This document shows positions 30,518-36,865 of a stretch of 64,000 nucleotides of DNA, piece by piece. The translations under genes and the position numbers were made by a program. The stretch spans positions 3,038,001-3,102,000 of the forward strand of contig NZ_JACHZG010000001.1 in the NCBI RefSeq assembly GCF_014193425.1. Direction: 5' to 3'. The notes beneath the pieces were generated by a model, which worked only from the letters and a program-made list of their open reading frames with translations, did no database searches and had not been told where the DNA came from. How positions within the stretch are numbered: position 1 is the stretch's first letter; every line of letters starts with the position of its first letter. This DNA is from Microlunatus antarcticus (lineage in GTDB: Bacteria; Actinomycetota; Actinomycetes; Propionibacteriales; Propionibacteriaceae).

Positions 30518-30930
30518 AGCGCGCCGTAGGCGTACGTCGGCCGGAGGCGGATGACGAGCCTCCGGTCGGCGACCATCGTGCGGCGGTAGTCGCCCCAGTC
30601 GGGGTGCTCGCCGGCGATGCCGCGGTAGAGCTCGACCAGCTCGTCGACGGCGGCGTCCGCCGGGTCGGCGGCCACGTCGGACAACGTGACGTCACCCTCG
30701 AGCACCGCGTACGACCAGAAGCTCTCCCCGTCGACCTTGAGCGAGCCCCAGGGCGTTCGCCGCAGGTTGTGGAACTTCGCCCGGTCGGCCGTGGTCGACA
30801 CACGGACGAGCCCGTCACCGCCGACCTGGTGGACGACGTTCGACAGCTGTGGGCGACCGTCCTGACGCAGCGTCACGAGCACCGAGCGGTCGTTCGCGCG
30901 GGCGGCGTCGAGGGCTCGTGCGAGGTCCAT
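30514..30930 (-). CDS. PPOX-class F420/FMN-dependent oxidoreductase
   Basis: The protein is 138 residues from ATG 30930. Split-barrel flavin-binding fold typical of the F420-dependent PPOX family: SVLVTLRQDGRPQLSNVVHQV, LVRVSTTADRAKFHNLRRTPWGSLKVDG, SYAVLEGDVTLSDVAADP and DWGDYRRTMVADRRLVIRLRPTYAYG. Small actinobacterial F420 enzymes of this kind act on quinones, biliverdin or other substrates; identity unknown. Confidence 0.85.
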   Translation of the reverse strand: MDLARALDAARANDRSVLVTLRQDGRPQLSNVVHQVGGDGLVRVSTTADRAKFHNLRRTPWGSLKVDGESFWSYAVLEGDVTLSDVAADPADAAVDELVELYRGIAGEHPDWGDYRRTMVADRRLVIRLRPTYAYGAL

Positions 30931-30983
30931 CTCCCCACTCTGGCACGCGGGGCCGTACGGCCGGCTTCGGCTACGGTCGGGGC

Positions 30984-31178
30984 ATGAGCCCGGACGAGAC
31001 GAACGACCGCGACCCCCGGGTCGAGGAGCGCGCCCTGCTGCTGCCCGAGGAGCGCGCCGCGGGCAGCGACGACCCCGAGGCCCAGGCCGCGGCGATCCTG
31101 GCCGACTCCGACGAGCGCGAGGACCACCCGGAGCGGACGCAGCAGGACTCGCCGCAGTCGCCGGACCTCGAGGGCTGA
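30984..31178 (+). CDS. Small acidic protein, function unknown
   Basis: The product is 64 residues, strongly charged (RDPRVEERALLLPEERAAG, AILADSDEREDHPERTQQD) and lacking hydrophobic segments, so likely disordered or helical. TACGGT lies 6 nt before ATG 30984, giving a leaderless pattern that supports it as a real gene. Divergent from the PPOX gene. No function known to me. Confidence 0.55.
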   Translation: MSPDETNDRDPRVEERALLLPEERAAGSDDPEAQAAAILADSDEREDHPERTQQDSPQSPDLEG

Positions 31179-31250
31179 GGCGCGCGGCCGCCTCCACTGA
31201 GACGGCCGTCCCACATCGCGGTACGGGTGGACGTGGGCGCGCCGATTCCC

Positions 31251-31256
31251 TACGTT
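31251..31256 (+). promoter_or_regulatory. -10 element for leaderless polycysteine leader ORF
   Basis: TACGTT ends 6 nt before the A of ATG 31263, the spacing expected if transcription starts on that A. TGGACG at 31228-31233, 17 nt upstream, is an acceptable -35. Confidence 0.5.
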
Positions 31257-31262
31257 TCTACT

Positions 31263-31331
31263 ATGGAAACAGAGCAGCGGAGCCGAATGCGCTCCGGCCG
31301 GTGCTGCTGTCGTCCCCGCTGCGGGCGCTGA
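31263..31331 (+). CDS. Leaderless 22-codon polycysteine leader peptide (cysteine attenuator)
   Basis: Begins at ATG 31263, with TACGTT 6 nt upstream. Translation: M-E-T-E-Q-R-S-R-M-R-S-G-R-C-C-C-R-P-R-C-G-R. Three consecutive Cys codons (TGC TGC TGT, 31302-31310) and a fourth at 31320 lie 118 nt before a sulfonate transport operon. Polycysteine leaderless small ORFs that act as cysteine-responsive attenuators of sulfur operons are established in mycobacteria. Here GCTCCGG (31291-31297), just before the Cys codons, can pair with CTGGAGC (31436-31442) over the tauC ribosome site. A ribosome stalled for lack of Cys would open that pairing. Confidence 0.75.
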   Translation: METEQRSRMRSGRCCCRPRCGR

Positions 31332-31389
31332 CGCGCCTGCCCGTCGCCCTGGTCGCGCCCGGTCCCTGACCGACGGTCGACCGCGACGA

Positions 31390-31406
31390 GGCCGTGACCG
31401 ACGGCC
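31390..31406 (+). promoter_or_regulatory. Leader hairpin between the Cys ORF and tauC
   Basis: GGCCGT-GACCG-ACGGCC forms a 6-bp stem with a 5-nt loop; a smaller GACCG-A-CGGTC stem precedes it at 31368-31378. These could be parts of the attenuator structure. The rest of 31332-31448 is C-rich with no ORF. Confidence 0.4.
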
Positions 31407-31448
31407 GACCCCCTCCCCGCCCACCGCCCCACCCCCTGGAGCACGCGT

Positions 31449-32327
31449 ATGGCCGCCGTCGTCGTCACCCCCGAGGACCAGCGCGCCGTGCGCTCGGGAT
31501 CGCTCGACGCCAGCGACACCTCGGCGGTCCTCGGCGCCCGCGGCGGCTTCGGCCGTCGGGCCGGGCTCCGGGTCCTGGCCGTCGCGCTGCTGCTCGGCGT
31601 CTGGTGGGTCATCTCGGCGTGGGGCGAGCCCGACGAGGTCATCCGGCCTTCGCCGGGGCTGGTCTGGGACACCTTCGTCCAGCTGAACACCGTCCACGAC
31701 GGGGTCCGCGGCTACAACGACATGTTCCTGTGGGAGCACCTGGCCATCAGCCTGCGGCGCATCCTGCTCGGCTCCGTGATCGGCGTCGTGGGCGGGCTCG
31801 TGCTCGGTGTGGTGCTGGGCACGGTGACGCCGATCCGGATCATGCTCGAGCCGCTGGTCACCTTCGTCCGGGCGCTGCCGCCGCTCGCGTACTTCAGCCT
31901 CTTCGTCATCTGGTTCGGCATCGACGAGTCGCCGAAGATCTGGCTGCTCGCCGTGGCGGCGCTGCCGCCGGTCGCCGTGGCCACCGCCGCCGCCGTGGTC
32001 GCCGCGCCGGTCGGGCTCGTCGAGTCGGCCCGCGCCCTCGGGGCGAGGCGGATCGACGTCGTCCGCGACGCCGTGATCATGTCGGCCCTGCCGGAGATCG
32101 TCACCGGCATCCGGATCGCCGTCGGCATCGCCTACTCCTCCGTCGTGGCCGCCGAGACGATCAACGGCCTGCCCGGCATCGGCGGCATGGTCCGCGACGC
32201 CCAGCGCTACAACAACACCGCCGTCGTCCTCGTCGGGATCATCGCCATCGGCATCTCGGGCCTGGTCATCGACGGGCTCCTCAGCGCCGCCGGACGTCGC
32301 GTCGCGCCCTGGCGCGGCCGGGTCTGA
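31449..32327 (+). CDS. tauC: Taurine/sulfonate ABC transporter permease
   Basis: The protein is 292 residues, a binding-protein-dependent permease with about six helices (VLAVALLLGVWWVISAWG, then SVIGVVGGLVLGVVLG). The EAA loop that contacts the ATPase is seen as LVESARALGARRIDVVRDAVIMSALPEIVTGIRIAVG. It matches the SsuC/TauC branch for aliphatic sulfonates, supported by the adjacent SBP, ATPase and TauD. ATG 31449 follows CTGGAG, the site predicted to be masked by the leader. Confidence 0.92.
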   Translation: MAAVVVTPEDQRAVRSGSLDASDTSAVLGARGGFGRRAGLRVLAVALLLGVWWVISAWGEPDEVIRPSPGLVWDTFVQLNTVHDGVRGYNDMFLWEHLAISLRRILLGSVIGVVGGLVLGVVLGTVTPIRIMLEPLVTFVRALPPLAYFSLFVIWFGIDESPKIWLLAVAALPPVAVATAAAVVAAPVGLVESARALGARRIDVVRDAVIMSALPEIVTGIRIAVGIAYSSVVAAETINGLPGIGGMVRDAQRYNNTAVVLVGIIAIGISGLVIDGLLSAAGRRVAPWRGRV

Positions 32328-32378: not shown

Positions 32379-33446
32379 GTGACCCACCCCGCCAGCCCCC
32401 GTCTCACCCGCCGCCTCGGCGTGGCCGTGACCGCCCTCGCGCTCGTCGCGCTCGCCGCCTGCGGAGGTGGCGGTGCGTCCGGCTCCGACGCCGGCGGCTC
32501 GGCCGACAAGACCATCCGCATCGCGTACCAGAAGTTCCCGAGCGGCGACCTGATCGTCAAGAACAAGAAGCTGCTCGAGACCGCCCTGCCCGACTACAAG
32601 ATCGAGTGGAGCGCGTTCGACTCCGGCGCCAGCATCAACACCGCCTACATCGCCAAGTCGATCGACGTCGCGGCGATCGGGTCGAGCCCCGTGGCCCGCG
32701 GGCTGTCGCAGCCGCTGAACATCCCGTACCAGGTCGCCTTCGTGCTCGACGTGGCCGGCGACAACGAGGCGCTCGTCGCCCGGAACGCCTCCGGCGTGAC
32801 CGACGTCGCCGGGCTGCGCGGCAAGAAGGTCGCCACGTCGTTCTCCTCGACCGCGCACTACAGCCTGCTCGCGGCGCTGAACCAGGCCGGGCTGAGCGAC
32901 AAGGACGTGACCCTGGTCGACCTCGAGCCCCAGGACATCGCCTCCGCCTGGAAGCGCGGCGACATCGACGCGGCGTACACCTGGCTGCCGGTCCTCGACA
33001 CGCTGCGCGCCGACGGCACGCAGCTGATCGCGAGCAAGGACCTGGCCACGGCCGGCAAGCCCACGCTCGACCTCGGTGTCGTGAGCACCGACTTCATCAC
33101 CAAGCACCCCGAGGCGGTCGACGCCTGGCGCAAGGCCGAGGCCTCCGCGCTCGAGACGATCAAGAACGACCCGACCGCGGCCAGCACCGCCATCGGGGCC
33201 GAGCTCGGCATCAGCCCCGAGGAGGCGGCCGGCCAGATCAAGCAGGGCGTCTACCTGACCCCGGCCGAGATGACCAGCTCGACCTGGCTCGGCACCGACG
33301 GCAAGCCGGGCAACGTGGGCAAGAACCTGCACGACGCCGCCGTCTTCCTGAGCGAGCAGAAGCAGATCCCGGCCGTGCCGGAGCAGTCGGTCTTCGACGC
33401 GGCCGTCTACACCAAGGGTCTGCCCGGTGTCCTCTCCCAGTCGTGA
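32379..33446 (+). CDS. tauA: Taurine/sulfonate ABC transporter substrate-binding lipoprotein
   Basis: The protein is 355 residues from GTG 32379 after AAGGAG. Lipoprotein signal with lipobox VALAAC (Cys about residue 28) and a Gly/Ser-rich linker. The binding domain is TauA/SsuA-like: IRIAYQKFPSGDLIVKN, FDSGASINTAYIAKSIDVAAIGSSPVARGL and AYTWLPVLDTLRADG. Outside of the membrane it captures taurine or alkanesulfonates and delivers them to TauC. Ligand specificity is inferred from the neighbouring tauD. Confidence 0.92.
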   Translation: MTHPASPRLTRRLGVAVTALALVALAACGGGGASGSDAGGSADKTIRIAYQKFPSGDLIVKNKKLLETALPDYKIEWSAFDSGASINTAYIAKSIDVAAIGSSPVARGLSQPLNIPYQVAFVLDVAGDNEALVARNASGVTDVAGLRGKKVATSFSSTAHYSLLAALNQAGLSDKDVTLVDLEPQDIASAWKRGDIDAAYTWLPVLDTLRADGTQLIASKDLATAGKPTLDLGVVSTDFITKHPEAVDAWRKAEASALETIKNDPTAASTAIGAELGISPEEAAGQIKQGVYLTPAEMTSSTWLGTDGKPGNVGKNLHDAAVFLSEQKQIPAVPEQSVFDAAVYTKGLPGVLSQS

Positions 33447-34257
33447 GCTGCGGGCGGCCGGCGCGGGGTCGCCGGCCGCCCAGCCAGCCGCCGAGCCGGT
33501 CGTCGAGGTGCAGGGCGTCGAGCACGCGTACGGTCACGGCCGGTCCGCCGTCGTGGCCGTCGGACCCGTCGACCTGACGATCGAGCCGGGCGAGTTCGTC
33601 GTGCTGGTCGGCGCCTCCGGGTGCGGCAAGAGCACCCTGCTGCGCCTGGTCGCGGGCTTCGAGACGCCGACCTCCGGCGCCGTCCGCGTCGGTGGCCGGA
33701 CGCCGGTCCCGGGGCGCGACGCCGGCCTGGTGTTCCAGCAGCCGCGGCTCTTCCCCTGGCGCACCGTCGGCGGCAACATCGAGCTGGCGCTGCGCTACAA
33801 GGGCCTCCCGCGCGACCAGCGCGTCGCGCGGCGTGACGAGCTGCTCACCCGGGTGGGCCTGCCCGACATCGCGGACCGTCGCGTCTGGGAGATCTCCGGC
33901 GGTCAGCAGCAGCGGGTCGCGATCGCCCGGGCCCTCGCCGTCGACTCCCCGCTCCTGCTGCTCGACGAGCCGTTCGCCGCCCTCGACGCGCTGACCCGGG
34001 AGCGGCTGCAGGAGGACGTCCGCCGCGTGAGCGCGGAGCCGGGCCGCACGTCGGTCTTCGTCACCCACAGCGTCGACGAGGCCGTGTTCCTGGGCAGCCG
34101 GGTCGTCGTGCTGAGCAAGCGGCCCGGCCGGGTCGCGCTGGACCTGGAGGTCGACCTGCCGCGGGCGGGCGTCGACCCCGACGACCTGCGGCTGCTGCCC
34201 GAGTTCGCCGCCGCCCGCACCGAGATCGCACACGCCGTCCGCAGCGCCGCCGCCTGA
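33427..34257 (+). CDS. tauB: Taurine/sulfonate ABC transporter ATP-binding protein
   Basis: The protein is 276 residues from GTG 33427, overlapping tauA by 20 nt. ABC ATPase with Walker A GASGCGKST (about residues 62-70), Q-loop GLVFQQPRLFPW, signature EISGGQQQRVAIARAL, Walker B LLLLDEPFAALD and a switch His in VFVTHSVDEAVFLG. This is the nitrate/sulfonate branch (SsuB/TauB). Confidence 0.93.
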   Translation: MSSPSRELRAAGAGSPAAQPAAEPVVEVQGVEHAYGHGRSAVVAVGPVDLTIEPGEFVVLVGASGCGKSTLLRLVAGFETPTSGAVRVGGRTPVPGRDAGLVFQQPRLFPWRTVGGNIELALRYKGLPRDQRVARRDELLTRVGLPDIADRRVWEISGGQQQRVAIARALAVDSPLLLLDEPFAALDALTRERLQEDVRRVSAEPGRTSVFVTHSVDEAVFLGSRVVVLSKRPGRVALDLEVDLPRAGVDPDDLRLLPEFAAARTEIAHAVRSAAA

Positions 34258-34279: not shown

Positions 34280-35176
34280 ATGACGCTCACCTCCACCACT
34301 GCCGGAACCGACCCGGCCGAGACCGGGGACCTGACGCTGGACCTGCTCGGACCGTCCTTCGGCGCCGAGGTCGTCGGGCTGGACCTCCGGAGGGCCACCG
34401 ACGCGCAGATCGCGGCGATCGGCGCCGCCCTCGTCGACCGCAAGGTGCTCTTCTTCCGCGGCCAGGACCTCACCGACGACGACCAGGTCGAGCTCGCCCG
34501 CCGGCTCGGCTCCCCCACCGCGGCGCACCCGGTGGTCGCGGGGCTCGACGACGCCCACCCCGAGATCTACAACATCGACAGCGCCGACCCGGCCTTCTCG
34601 TTCTCCGACGTGTGGCACACGGACGTCACGTTCATGGAGAGCCCGCCCGCCGCGTCGATCCTGCGCGCCATCCAGCTCCCCCCGTCCGGCGGCGACACGA
34701 GCTGGGCCGACAGCCAGCTGGCGTACGAGTCGCTCGCGGCCCCGGTGCGCGCCATGATCGACCAGCTCGACGCCGTTCACGACGGGGACCGCGAGTGGGG
34801 CATGCACCTGCGTCGCGGACGCGGCGGCGAGGGCAACCTCTGGGACGGCAAGCGGGTCACCGAGCTGCTCCCCGTCGCCCACCCGGTCGTCCGCGTGCAC
34901 CCAGTCACCGGGCGCAAGGGCCTGTTCGTCAACCCGGGCTTCACCTCGCACGTCGTGGGCGTCTCCGAGCACGAGAGCCGCGGCATCCTCGACCTGCTCT
35001 ACGCCCACCTCACCAAGCCCGAGCACACGATCCGCCACCGCTGGCAGGCCGGCGACGTCGGCCTCTGGGACAACCGCAGCACGTCCCACTACGCCAACCG
35101 CGACTACACCGACGTCCGTGTGATGCGCCGCATCACGCTCGCCGGAGACAAGCCGGTCGGGCCGCGCAAGCCCTGA
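34280..35176 (+). CDS. tauD: TauD/TfdA-family alpha-ketoglutarate-dependent (taurine) dioxygenase
   Basis: The protein is 298 residues from ATG 34280 after GAGAAGGAG. Non-heme Fe(II) dioxygenase with the facial triad H113-x-D115 (VWHTDVTFME) and a distal His about 270 (NRSTSHYANRDY); the 2-oxoglutarate-binding Arg lies in RVMRRITLAG. With 2-oxoglutarate and O2 it releases sulfite from taurine or a related sulfonate. Last gene of tauCABD, followed by a long hairpin. Confidence 0.92.
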   Translation: MTLTSTTAGTDPAETGDLTLDLLGPSFGAEVVGLDLRRATDAQIAAIGAALVDRKVLFFRGQDLTDDDQVELARRLGSPTAAHPVVAGLDDAHPEIYNIDSADPAFSFSDVWHTDVTFMESPPAASILRAIQLPPSGGDTSWADSQLAYESLAAPVRAMIDQLDAVHDGDREWGMHLRRGRGGEGNLWDGKRVTELLPVAHPVVRVHPVTGRKGLFVNPGFTSHVVGVSEHESRGILDLLYAHLTKPEHTIRHRWQAGDVGLWDNRSTSHYANRDYTDVRVMRRITLAGDKPVGPRKP

Positions 35177-35253: not shown

Positions 35254-36384
35254 TCAGGCGGCGAGGCCGCGGCGTCGGAGGATCGGCAGGACGCCCTCGG
35301 CGAACCAGTACGCCTCCTCGACGTGCGGGTAGCCGGACAGGACGAACTCCTCGATGCCGACGGCCGCGTACTCCCCGATCAGGTCGGCGACCTCGGTGTG
35401 GCTGCCGACCAGCGCGGTGCCGGCGCCGCTGCGCATCAGGCCGATCCCCGACCACAGGCCCGGGTGCACCTCGAGCTGGCGGGCCTCGGTGTACGTGGTC
35501 AGGCCACCGTGCAGCGCGCGCATCCGGCGCTGTCCCTCCGACTCGCTGGCCGCCAGCGCGGCCTGCGCCTTCGCGACGTCAGAAGGGTCGAGCTGCGCCA
35601 GCATGTCGTCGGCCACCCGCCACGCGTCCTCGGAACGGTCCCGGCTGATGGTGTGCAGGCGTACGCCGAAGCGCACCTGCCGGCCGGCCGCCTCGGTCAG
35701 GCCCCGGATCCAGGCGATCTTCGCCGCGACGGCCGCCGGCGGCTCGCCCCAGGTGAGGTAGACGTCGGTCTGCTCGGCCGTCACCGGGCCGGCGGCGGCC
35801 GACGAGCCGCCGAGGTAGATCTCCGGCACGGGCGCGGGTTGCCGCGTCCGGGCGTCGGTGACGTCGTAGAAGTCGCCGGTGAAACTCGTGCCGGCCGCCG
35901 TGAACGCCCCGCGGAAGACCTGCAGGAACTCGGCCGCCCGGGCGTAGCGGTCGTCCTTGCCGACCCGGTCGCCGAAGCGCAGCTGCTCGTCCCGGTCACC
36001 GCCGACGACGACGTTCAGCAGGAGGCGGTTGCCCGACATCCGCTGGAACGTCGACGCCATCTGCGCCAGCAGCGTCGGGCTGATCAGCCCGGGCCGGAGC
36101 GCGACCAGGAACTTGAGCCGCTCGGTCTGGGTGATCAGCGCCGAGGCGACGACCCACGCGTCCTCGCACGGCGTCCCGGTCGGGGTCAGGACCGCGTCGA
36201 AGCCGAGGTCCTCCGCCGTCCGGGCGACGTGCGCGAGGTAGCGCAGGTCCGGCTCGCGGAACCGTCCGGCCGTGTCGAGCGAGCCACCGGCCCGGCCGAC
36301 GTCGACGGGGACGCTGTGCCCGCCCCCGACGAGGGACCGGCTGTCGCCGGTGGTGGGCAGGAACCAGTCGTACGTCGGCGTCAC
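35254..36384 (-). CDS. ssuD: Alkanesulfonate monooxygenase, FMNH2-dependent (SsuD-type LLM)
   Basis: The protein is 376 residues, within the SsuD size range. It is a luciferase-like TIM barrel: YLAHVARTAEDLGFDAVLTPTGTPCEDAW contains the conserved Cys, RLKFLVALRPGLISPTLLAQMASTFQRMSGNRLLLNVVVGGD, and FGVRLHTISRDRSEDAW. SsuD uses FMNH2 and O2 to split alkanesulfonates into aldehyde and sulfite. It lies 19 nt downstream of osmC; flavin reductases needed for FMNH2 supply are in the same block. Confidence 0.93.
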   Translation of the reverse strand: MTPTYDWFLPTTGDSRSLVGGGHSVPVDVGRAGGSLDTAGRFREPDLRYLAHVARTAEDLGFDAVLTPTGTPCEDAWVVASALITQTERLKFLVALRPGLISPTLLAQMASTFQRMSGNRLLLNVVVGGDRDEQLRFGDRVGKDDRYARAAEFLQVFRGAFTAAGTSFTGDFYDVTDARTRQPAPVPEIYLGGSSAAAGPVTAEQTDVYLTWGEPPAAVAAKIAWIRGLTEAAGRQVRFGVRLHTISRDRSEDAWRVADDMLAQLDPSDVAKAQAALAASESEGQRRMRALHGGLTTYTEARQLEVHPGLWSGIGLMRSGAGTALVGSHTEVADLIGEYAAVGIEEFVLSGYPHVEEAYWFAEGVLPILRRRGLAA

Positions 36385-36403: not shown

Positions 36404-36865
36404 TCAGGCCAGCGGCAGCGCGGTCCACGTCGAGCTGTAGTCCAGCCCGCTCCGCTTGAACAGCTGGGTCACGGGGCAGCGGCGCTCGAGCTCCGACACC
36501 AGGGTCGCGAAGGTCTCCTCGTCCGCATCGGTCTCGACGGACGCCACCACGGTCACGGCGTCGAAGTTCGCGTTCCCGTCGGCGCCGCCCACGAACACGG
36601 ACGGGTCGAAGTCCCCGCGCGCGGAGATCCGGAACTCCCCCAGCCGCACGCCCAGGCCCTTCGCGACCAGCTGCGCCGAGATCTGGTTGCACGAGGTGAG
36701 GGCCCCGAGCGTGTACGACAGCGGGCTCGGCGCGGCGTCGGCCCCGCCGAACGCCGGGTAGGTGTCCGAGCTGAACGTGTGCGCGTGCTCGCCGACGACC
36801 GTCAGCTGCTGCGCGACGCCGGTTCCGTGTCCCTCGACGGTGAACGGGACGATCTGCTTGGGCAC
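36404..36865 (-). CDS. OsmC-family protein (thiol peroxidase-like)
   Basis: The protein is 153 residues, with the two redox Cys motifs of the family, LGALTSCNQISAQLVAKGLG and LERRCPVTQLFKRSG. OsmC-type proteins reduce organic hydroperoxides or handle reactive sulfur species. ATG 36865 follows AAGGAG. The position between the monooxygenase operon and ssuD suggests protection against peroxides or persulfides made by flavin monooxygenases (inference). Confidence 0.87.
   Translation of the reverse strand: MPKQIVPFTVEGHGTGVAQQLTVVGEHAHTFSSDTYPAFGGADAAPSPLSYTLGALTSCNQISAQLVAKGLGVRLGEFRISARGDFDPSVFVGGADGNANFDAVTVVASVETDADEETFATLVSELERRCPVTQLFKRSGLDYSSTWTALPLA

Follow-up and report, generated by a model that had tools for sequence, protein, structure and literature searches.

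The short ORF at 31263-31331 is probably a leaderless polycysteine leader that makes the downstream tauCABD-like sulfonate operon respond to cysteine supply. Judged from sequence, this reading has a probability of roughly 0.7. It is based on a Cys-Cys-Cys (CCC) ORF that is unique in the window (the whole 64-kb stretch of DNA that was analyzed), on the promoter layout, and on Cys leaders found before orthologous operons and before sulfur genes of the same genome. We infer that transcription starts at 31263, that the ORF is translated, that ribosomes stall on it and that the operon is regulated in this way. When Cys-tRNA is scarce, the translating ribosome would slow on the CCC run (codons 14-16) and expression of the operon would go up. 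When cysteine is plentiful, the ribosome would proceed to the stop codon and expression would stay low. The output step may be a refolding that frees the tauC start, termination by Rho within the C-rich gap, or a combination of the two.

The leader ORF and the tauCABD-like operon

The features of the leader and the operon are as follows.

31228-31256, plus strand: promoter-like hexamers, TGGACG at 31228-31233 and TACGTT at 31251-31256, by direct reading
31263-31331, plus strand: leader ORF of the leaderless type, 22 codons, reading METEQRSRMRSGRCCCRPRCGR, with ATG at 31263 and the stop codon at 31329-31331
31302-31310, plus strand: tandem Cys codons TGC TGC TGT, codons 14-16, by direct reading
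31449-32327, plus strand: tauC-like permease, first gene of the operon; best NCBIfam match TauC, 183 bits (cut-off 342)
32379-33446, plus strand: tauA-like substrate-binding protein; best NCBIfam match taurine-binding protein, 208.5 bits (cut-off 304)
33427-34257, plus strand: tauB-like ATP-binding protein; best NCBIfam match taurine ATP-binding subunit, 214 bits (cut-off 357)
34280-35176, plus strand: tauD-like dioxygenase; best NCBIfam match taurine dioxygenase, 278.5 bits (cut-off 313)

Direct reading confirmed the 22-codon ORF with Cys-Cys-Cys and a fourth Cys (TGC, codon 20, 31320-31322) that the original prediction had placed ahead of a sulfonate operon. The stop codon of the leader is 117 nt from the ATG of tauC. 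A -10 hexamer spaced for a leaderless start had also been claimed. TACGTT is separated by 17 nt from TGGACG and ends 6 nt before the leader ATG. Such a distance between the hexamer and the ATG is expected where transcription begins at the ATG, as in leaderless genes. In the 64-kb window, only one other short ORF has TANNNT 5-7 nt ahead of ATG or GTG. A stricter sigma-70 scan of 30900-31700 reported no promoter at the leader.

The gene order C-A-B-D is based on the best NCBIfam matches, and all four matches are under the equivalog cut-offs. Thus, taurine is the likely substrate and a related sulfonate is possible. Behind tauD, two convergent genes are present on the minus strand, one alkanesulfonate-monooxygenase-like (35254-36384) and one OsmC-like (36404-36865), with matches under the cut-off. 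Their presence suggests that the sulfonate cluster may exceed tauCABD.

The leader ORF is real and beyond chance. Neither strand of the window contains another ORF of 8-45 codons with Cys-Cys-Cys, while 15 shuffled windows had a mean of 0.13 short CCC ORFs per 64 kb. No CCC ORF appeared in 5000 shuffles of the 504 nt upstream of tauC. Real sequence was judged a fairer control than shuffles. In 161 fetched loci (578,967 bases, some overlapping, both strands), 29 short CCC ORFs were observed, 9 of which were judged to be leaders (L143 and L163 among them being one place) and 20 to be background. The background corresponds to ~17 CCC ORFs per Mb and strand in the fetched loci, or ~0.005 expected per 300 nt on one strand. 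A leaderless-like motif accompanied 8 of the 29, namely the window leader and an antisense ORF that recurs in similar form in seven rows from orthologous loci.

Cysteine leaders of orthologous operons and of the same genome

A class-wide sample of 394 genomes yielded 24 TauC orthologs with at least 52% identity, the one from the window excluded. A Cys leader ORF is present upstream of 11 of them (L138-L140, L143, L145-L147, L149, L150, L152, and L155), and 13 are without one. In at least five of these 13, tauC lies directly behind another gene, as seen by eye. In the two closest orthologs (66% identity), leaders of the VYSASWLVRRRHVDLCRLNGAACRS type precede tauC by 114 and 110 nt, compared with 117 nt in the window. 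The leader of the first, the only one of the two that was scanned, passes the cut-off of NF042934. In the family of these two orthologs, a Cys leader was observed in just these 2 of the 17 ortholog-bearing genomes among 120 searched.

Another genus, in which the gap between leader and tauC is short, contains a tauC ortholog in 56 of 158 genomes. Adjacent-Cys leaders precede 38 of these 56. Most of the leaders (34/38) are 10-14 codons long, and 33 of the 38 are preceded by a promoter-like GTA-NN-AAT motif under a loose pattern. The other 18 orthologs have no adjacent-Cys leader; one of them, L233, has two separated Cys. Loci counted as being without a Cys leader include L141, with a broken frame, and L142/L189 and L171, with a leader-like ORF lacking Cys. 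By eye, the leader-like ORFs behind the promoter in L171 and L189 hold no Cys codon (VITTPRRRPRAHP; VNATLPADRDEVARRVRIR). They are perhaps leaders that ceased sensing cysteine.

The leader peptides are very unlike each other across the orthologs, and the recurring feature is Cys toward the end. Two of them are plasmid-borne, VPHTCLTRRITLDLCRLCTVGCR in Pseudonocardia sp. EC080619-01 and MNSELLVRRLVIDLCRRPGSCCC in Streptomyces chartreusis. No Cys leader was recognized ahead of the more distant TauC relatives scanned (L002-L030 and L111-L137). ORFs with Cys codons at the start of tauC in L112, L114, and L116 are not conserved in L115 and L117 and were judged to be due to chance. A TauC scan of named genomes kept 80 loci, nearly all proteobacterial and with 31-37% identity; only the upstream regions of L031 and L032 were scanned, and none of the 80 was used further. 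A motif like TTTTGCTCGCGCTGAGCGCAG recurs ahead of tauC in L142, L143, L144, L148, L190, L193, L202, and L207 (by eye), whether or not a Cys leader is present. It is perhaps the binding site of a regulator.

No homolog of the window leader peptide or of the leader DNA was found. In 19 other genomes of the same genus, no TauC relative above 40% identity was found; one genome has a relative (E ≤ 1e-30) with 40% identity, directly behind another gene. The leader DNA matched 194 of 197 genomes of the family, its own included, at E ≤ 1, and the best foreign match was 1.5e-5. These matches were judged to be due to chance. Those listed are short and GC-rich, and in the one inspected, L271, no Cys leader was seen. 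The peptide matched no NCBIfam family at E up to 10, including the leader families NF042934, NF042933, and NF042936, and Rfam covariance models gave no match at E up to 10 in 31150-31550.

The same genome (an assembly of 4.37 Mb in 18 contigs) contains further candidates. NF042934 detected one leader above its cut-off, MRTLHQRRHIDLSRTASAVCRMTTRS (30.8 bits), ahead of a cysteine dioxygenase gene, and one match below it (19.4 bits) ahead of a nitrite/sulfite reductase gene. NF042933 gave a weak match (14.2 bits, E 0.26) ahead of a rhodanese-type sulfurtransferase gene. Above-cut-off leader matches were observed in 11 of 20 genomes of the genus versus 0 of 14 control genomes. Since weak matches also occur in the controls (6/14 for NF042934 and 7/14 for NF042933), the two weak candidates rest mainly on their downstream genes. 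It is possible that the candidates, L240, L260/L280, and L282, constitute a cysteine-leader regulon of this genome. The cysteine-sensing reading of the original prediction is thus well supported by the uniqueness of the ORF, the promoter layout, the Cys leaders of orthologs, and the candidates in the same genome.

From the leader to tauC

The features between the Cys codons and tauC that bear on the output step are as follows.

31291-31297, plus strand: upstream arm of the proposed pairing, GCTCCGG, forming 7 pairs with 31436-31442, one of them G-U
31332-31448, plus strand: gap of 117 nt from the leader stop to tauC, with a hairpin at 31390-31406 in folds of truncated transcripts
31405-31437, plus strand: C-rich, G-poor tract (25 C and 3 G of 33), a candidate Rho loading site
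31436-31442, plus strand: segment CTGGAGC with the ribosome site of tauC, GGAG at 31438-31441; downstream arm of the proposed pairing

In one explanation, which we hold to be improbable yet the likeliest of the alternatives, stalling acts on transcription: Rho would load on the C-rich gap past the leader stop and terminate the transcript, except where ribosomes or an altered fold stand in the way. The tract has no equal in the window. The only 33-nt place with at least 25 C on either strand is at 31404/31405, and none of 2192 background windows has as large a C-minus-G excess, at a length of either 25 or 33 nt. The terminator scan of 30900-31700 found no intrinsic terminator in the gap, and a role of Rho at actinobacterial cys operons with Cys-run leaders has been proposed in the part of PMC1262725 that treats them. 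However, a Cys-stalled ribosome would end ~80-87 nt short of the tract and cannot cover it, so Rho could respond indirectly only. Nine further relatives with long gaps show a mild C excess (the median share of background windows as high is 0.18 at 33 nt), and that of the short-gap genus is no weaker (median share 0.09). The tract may also reflect plain base composition.

An intrinsic attenuator in the gap was considered and rejected: the hairpin at 31390-31406 appears when truncated transcripts are folded, whether a ribosome footprint is included or not, and no switch was seen. The gap also contains an imperfect 15-nt direct repeat, TGACCGACGG(T/C)CGAC, at 31367-31381 and 31395-31409. The second copy pairs with the first tauC codons in the full fold.

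In the explanation favored by the original prediction, 31291-31297 masks the ribosome site of tauC, and a ribosome stalled at the Cys codons covers this segment and frees tauC translation. This appears somewhat less likely still. The claimed 7-bp pairing with one G-U can form, and it extends with gaps to 31285-31303 and 31430-31450. Its helix, however, has a predicted probability of 0.04-0.05, and the pairing does not exceed chance. Runs of 7 bp that include GGAG turned up in 219 of 2000 sequences when the 41 nt around the Cys codons were shuffled, in 264 of 2000 when the leader plus gap was shuffled, and in 236 of 5000 random genomic 41-mers. The duplex of the whole leader with the start was equalled by 55 and 57 of 1000 shuffles and by 182 of 2000 random genomic 69-mers; with the leader set against random genomic 31-mers, it was equalled by 509 of 2000. 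Comparable runs or duplexes thus occur in ~5 to 25% of the controls.

The stall test asked whether the downstream start takes less energy to open when a simulated ribosome footprint is placed on the Cys codons; it is an equilibrium calculation that ignores folding during transcription. Placing the A site on the second Cys codon decreased the opening cost of tauC from 9.84 to 7.17 kcal/mol, which favors masking, but footprints at the first and third Cys codons were without effect. The stall effect in the window was 0.81, compared with 0.44 ± 1.49 in shuffles. The tauC start is no more masked than in shuffles (56/100 at least as masked) and no more opened by the stall (29/100 as high; 10/100 with a wider and 73/100 with a narrower footprint), which gives no support to the claim that a Cys-stalled ribosome opens tauC.

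In the short-gap genus, the test gave a different result. For 34 leaders with gaps of 21-58 nt, the mean stall opening was 4.94 kcal/mol versus 0.53 kcal/mol in shuffles. The real value was reached by 54 of 408 shuffles, and 30 of the 34 leaders were above their own shuffled mean. This strong predicted opening in relatives speaks for masking as a mechanism. It also indicates that the stall test can detect ribosome-site masking, and none was detected in the window. By eye, the Cys codons and the following CGC TGA in this genus can face CAGC-ACAG beside the ribosome site. Five of the 38 leaders (L187, L196, L220, L222, and L229) were not folded, as the script did not find the tauC start, and the 34 folded leaders include L233, which is outside the 38. 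L190 was dropped as no leader, and L143 and L227 were given a promoter-proximal start by hand. Of the nine further leaders with long gaps (83-213 nt), the Streptomyces leader alone stands out (1/20 shuffles as high); for the rest, 4 to 19 of 20 shuffles were as high as the real effect. The tauC starts of L139, L145, L147, and L149 are the first pattern match past the leader and may be wrong.

As a tentative and rather doubtful generalization, the Cys leaders of sulfonate operons may comprise two designs. In the short-gap design, the Cys codons would lie within the start-masking stem. In the long-gap design, represented by the window and other families, the same sensor would have another output, possibly Rho termination in the C-rich gap. 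If the cysteine-responsive reading is true, how long-gap leaders relay the signal with no detectable ribosome-site masking becomes a testable question.

The least likely alternative is that the ORF is coincidental, TGCTGCTGT being an out-of-frame reading of coding-like, Leu-rich sequence that follows a promoter by accident, with no cysteine sensing: the other frame of 31265-31370 resembles an Ala/Leu/Pro-rich protein by eye, and the peptide has neither a family match nor a homolog found, but the uniqueness of the leader in the real window and against shuffles, the low background expected in 300 nt, and the equally placed Cys leaders of orthologous operons argue against it.

Comparison with known cysteine leaders

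Polycysteine-encoding, leaderless short ORF attenuators of mycobacteria were reportedly described by Canestrari et al. in 2020. The leader in the window resembles the mycobacterial polycysteine attenuators in having adjacent Cys codons within a short ORF that precedes a sulfur-related operon. Their leaderless layout may be shared as well: in the window, TACGTT 6 nt before the ATG fits it, and the stricter scan found no promoter. The leader in the window differs from the mycobacterial attenuators in belonging to another lineage and in that ribosome-site masking is not supported for it; its taurine/sulfonate operon may be a further difference. The families NF042934 (cis_reg_atten), NF042933 (Ms5788A), and NF042936 (Ms4527A) consist of Cys-bearing leader peptides, as in the window. 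Leaders of the closest TauC orthologs match NF042934, whereas the window peptide matches none of the three.

In the parts of the literature concerned, polycysteine leaders are established as cysteine-responsive attenuators in mycobacteria (PMC9031893, PMC9094748, PMC13236596). Leader peptides with Cys runs were predicted in 2005 for cys operons of Mycobacterium spp. and Propionibacterium acnes and for cbs of Bifidobacterium longum, in the section of PMC1262725 dealing with them. As given there, these leaders share with the window a Cys run in a short upstream ORF and the lack of a terminator. Their pyrimidine-rich gap was discussed as a Rho site, comparable to the gap in the window, and the same passage suggested Rho weakly, by the authors' own words. 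They differ from the window in having the Cys run near the stop codon and in their target genes. The uORFC-8-2 motif before cysS in Rhodobacterales, as outlined in part of PMC8632094, is a tandem-Cys upstream ORF interpreted as ribosome-mediated attenuation, like the reading proposed here. It differs in its intrinsic terminator, phylum and target gene. The portion of PMC8079986 that gives a leader list for S. lividans names no Cys-dependent leader.

A literature search, with the loci of Canestrari et al. 2020 lying outside its scope, recognized no paper that ties polycysteine leaders to taurine or sulfonate uptake. The novelty claimed for this use is weakened by the 2005 Cys-run predictions in the relevant part of PMC1262725 and by the Cys leaders on this transporter in several actinobacterial families. 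If the cysteine-responsive reading is true, ribosome-based cysteine sensing would reach from cysteine synthesis to organosulfonate scavenging, and this link would recur across several actinobacterial families despite very different leader peptides. The leader in the window is probably an added case of the established polycysteine-leader type, with sulfonate uptake as its likely target.
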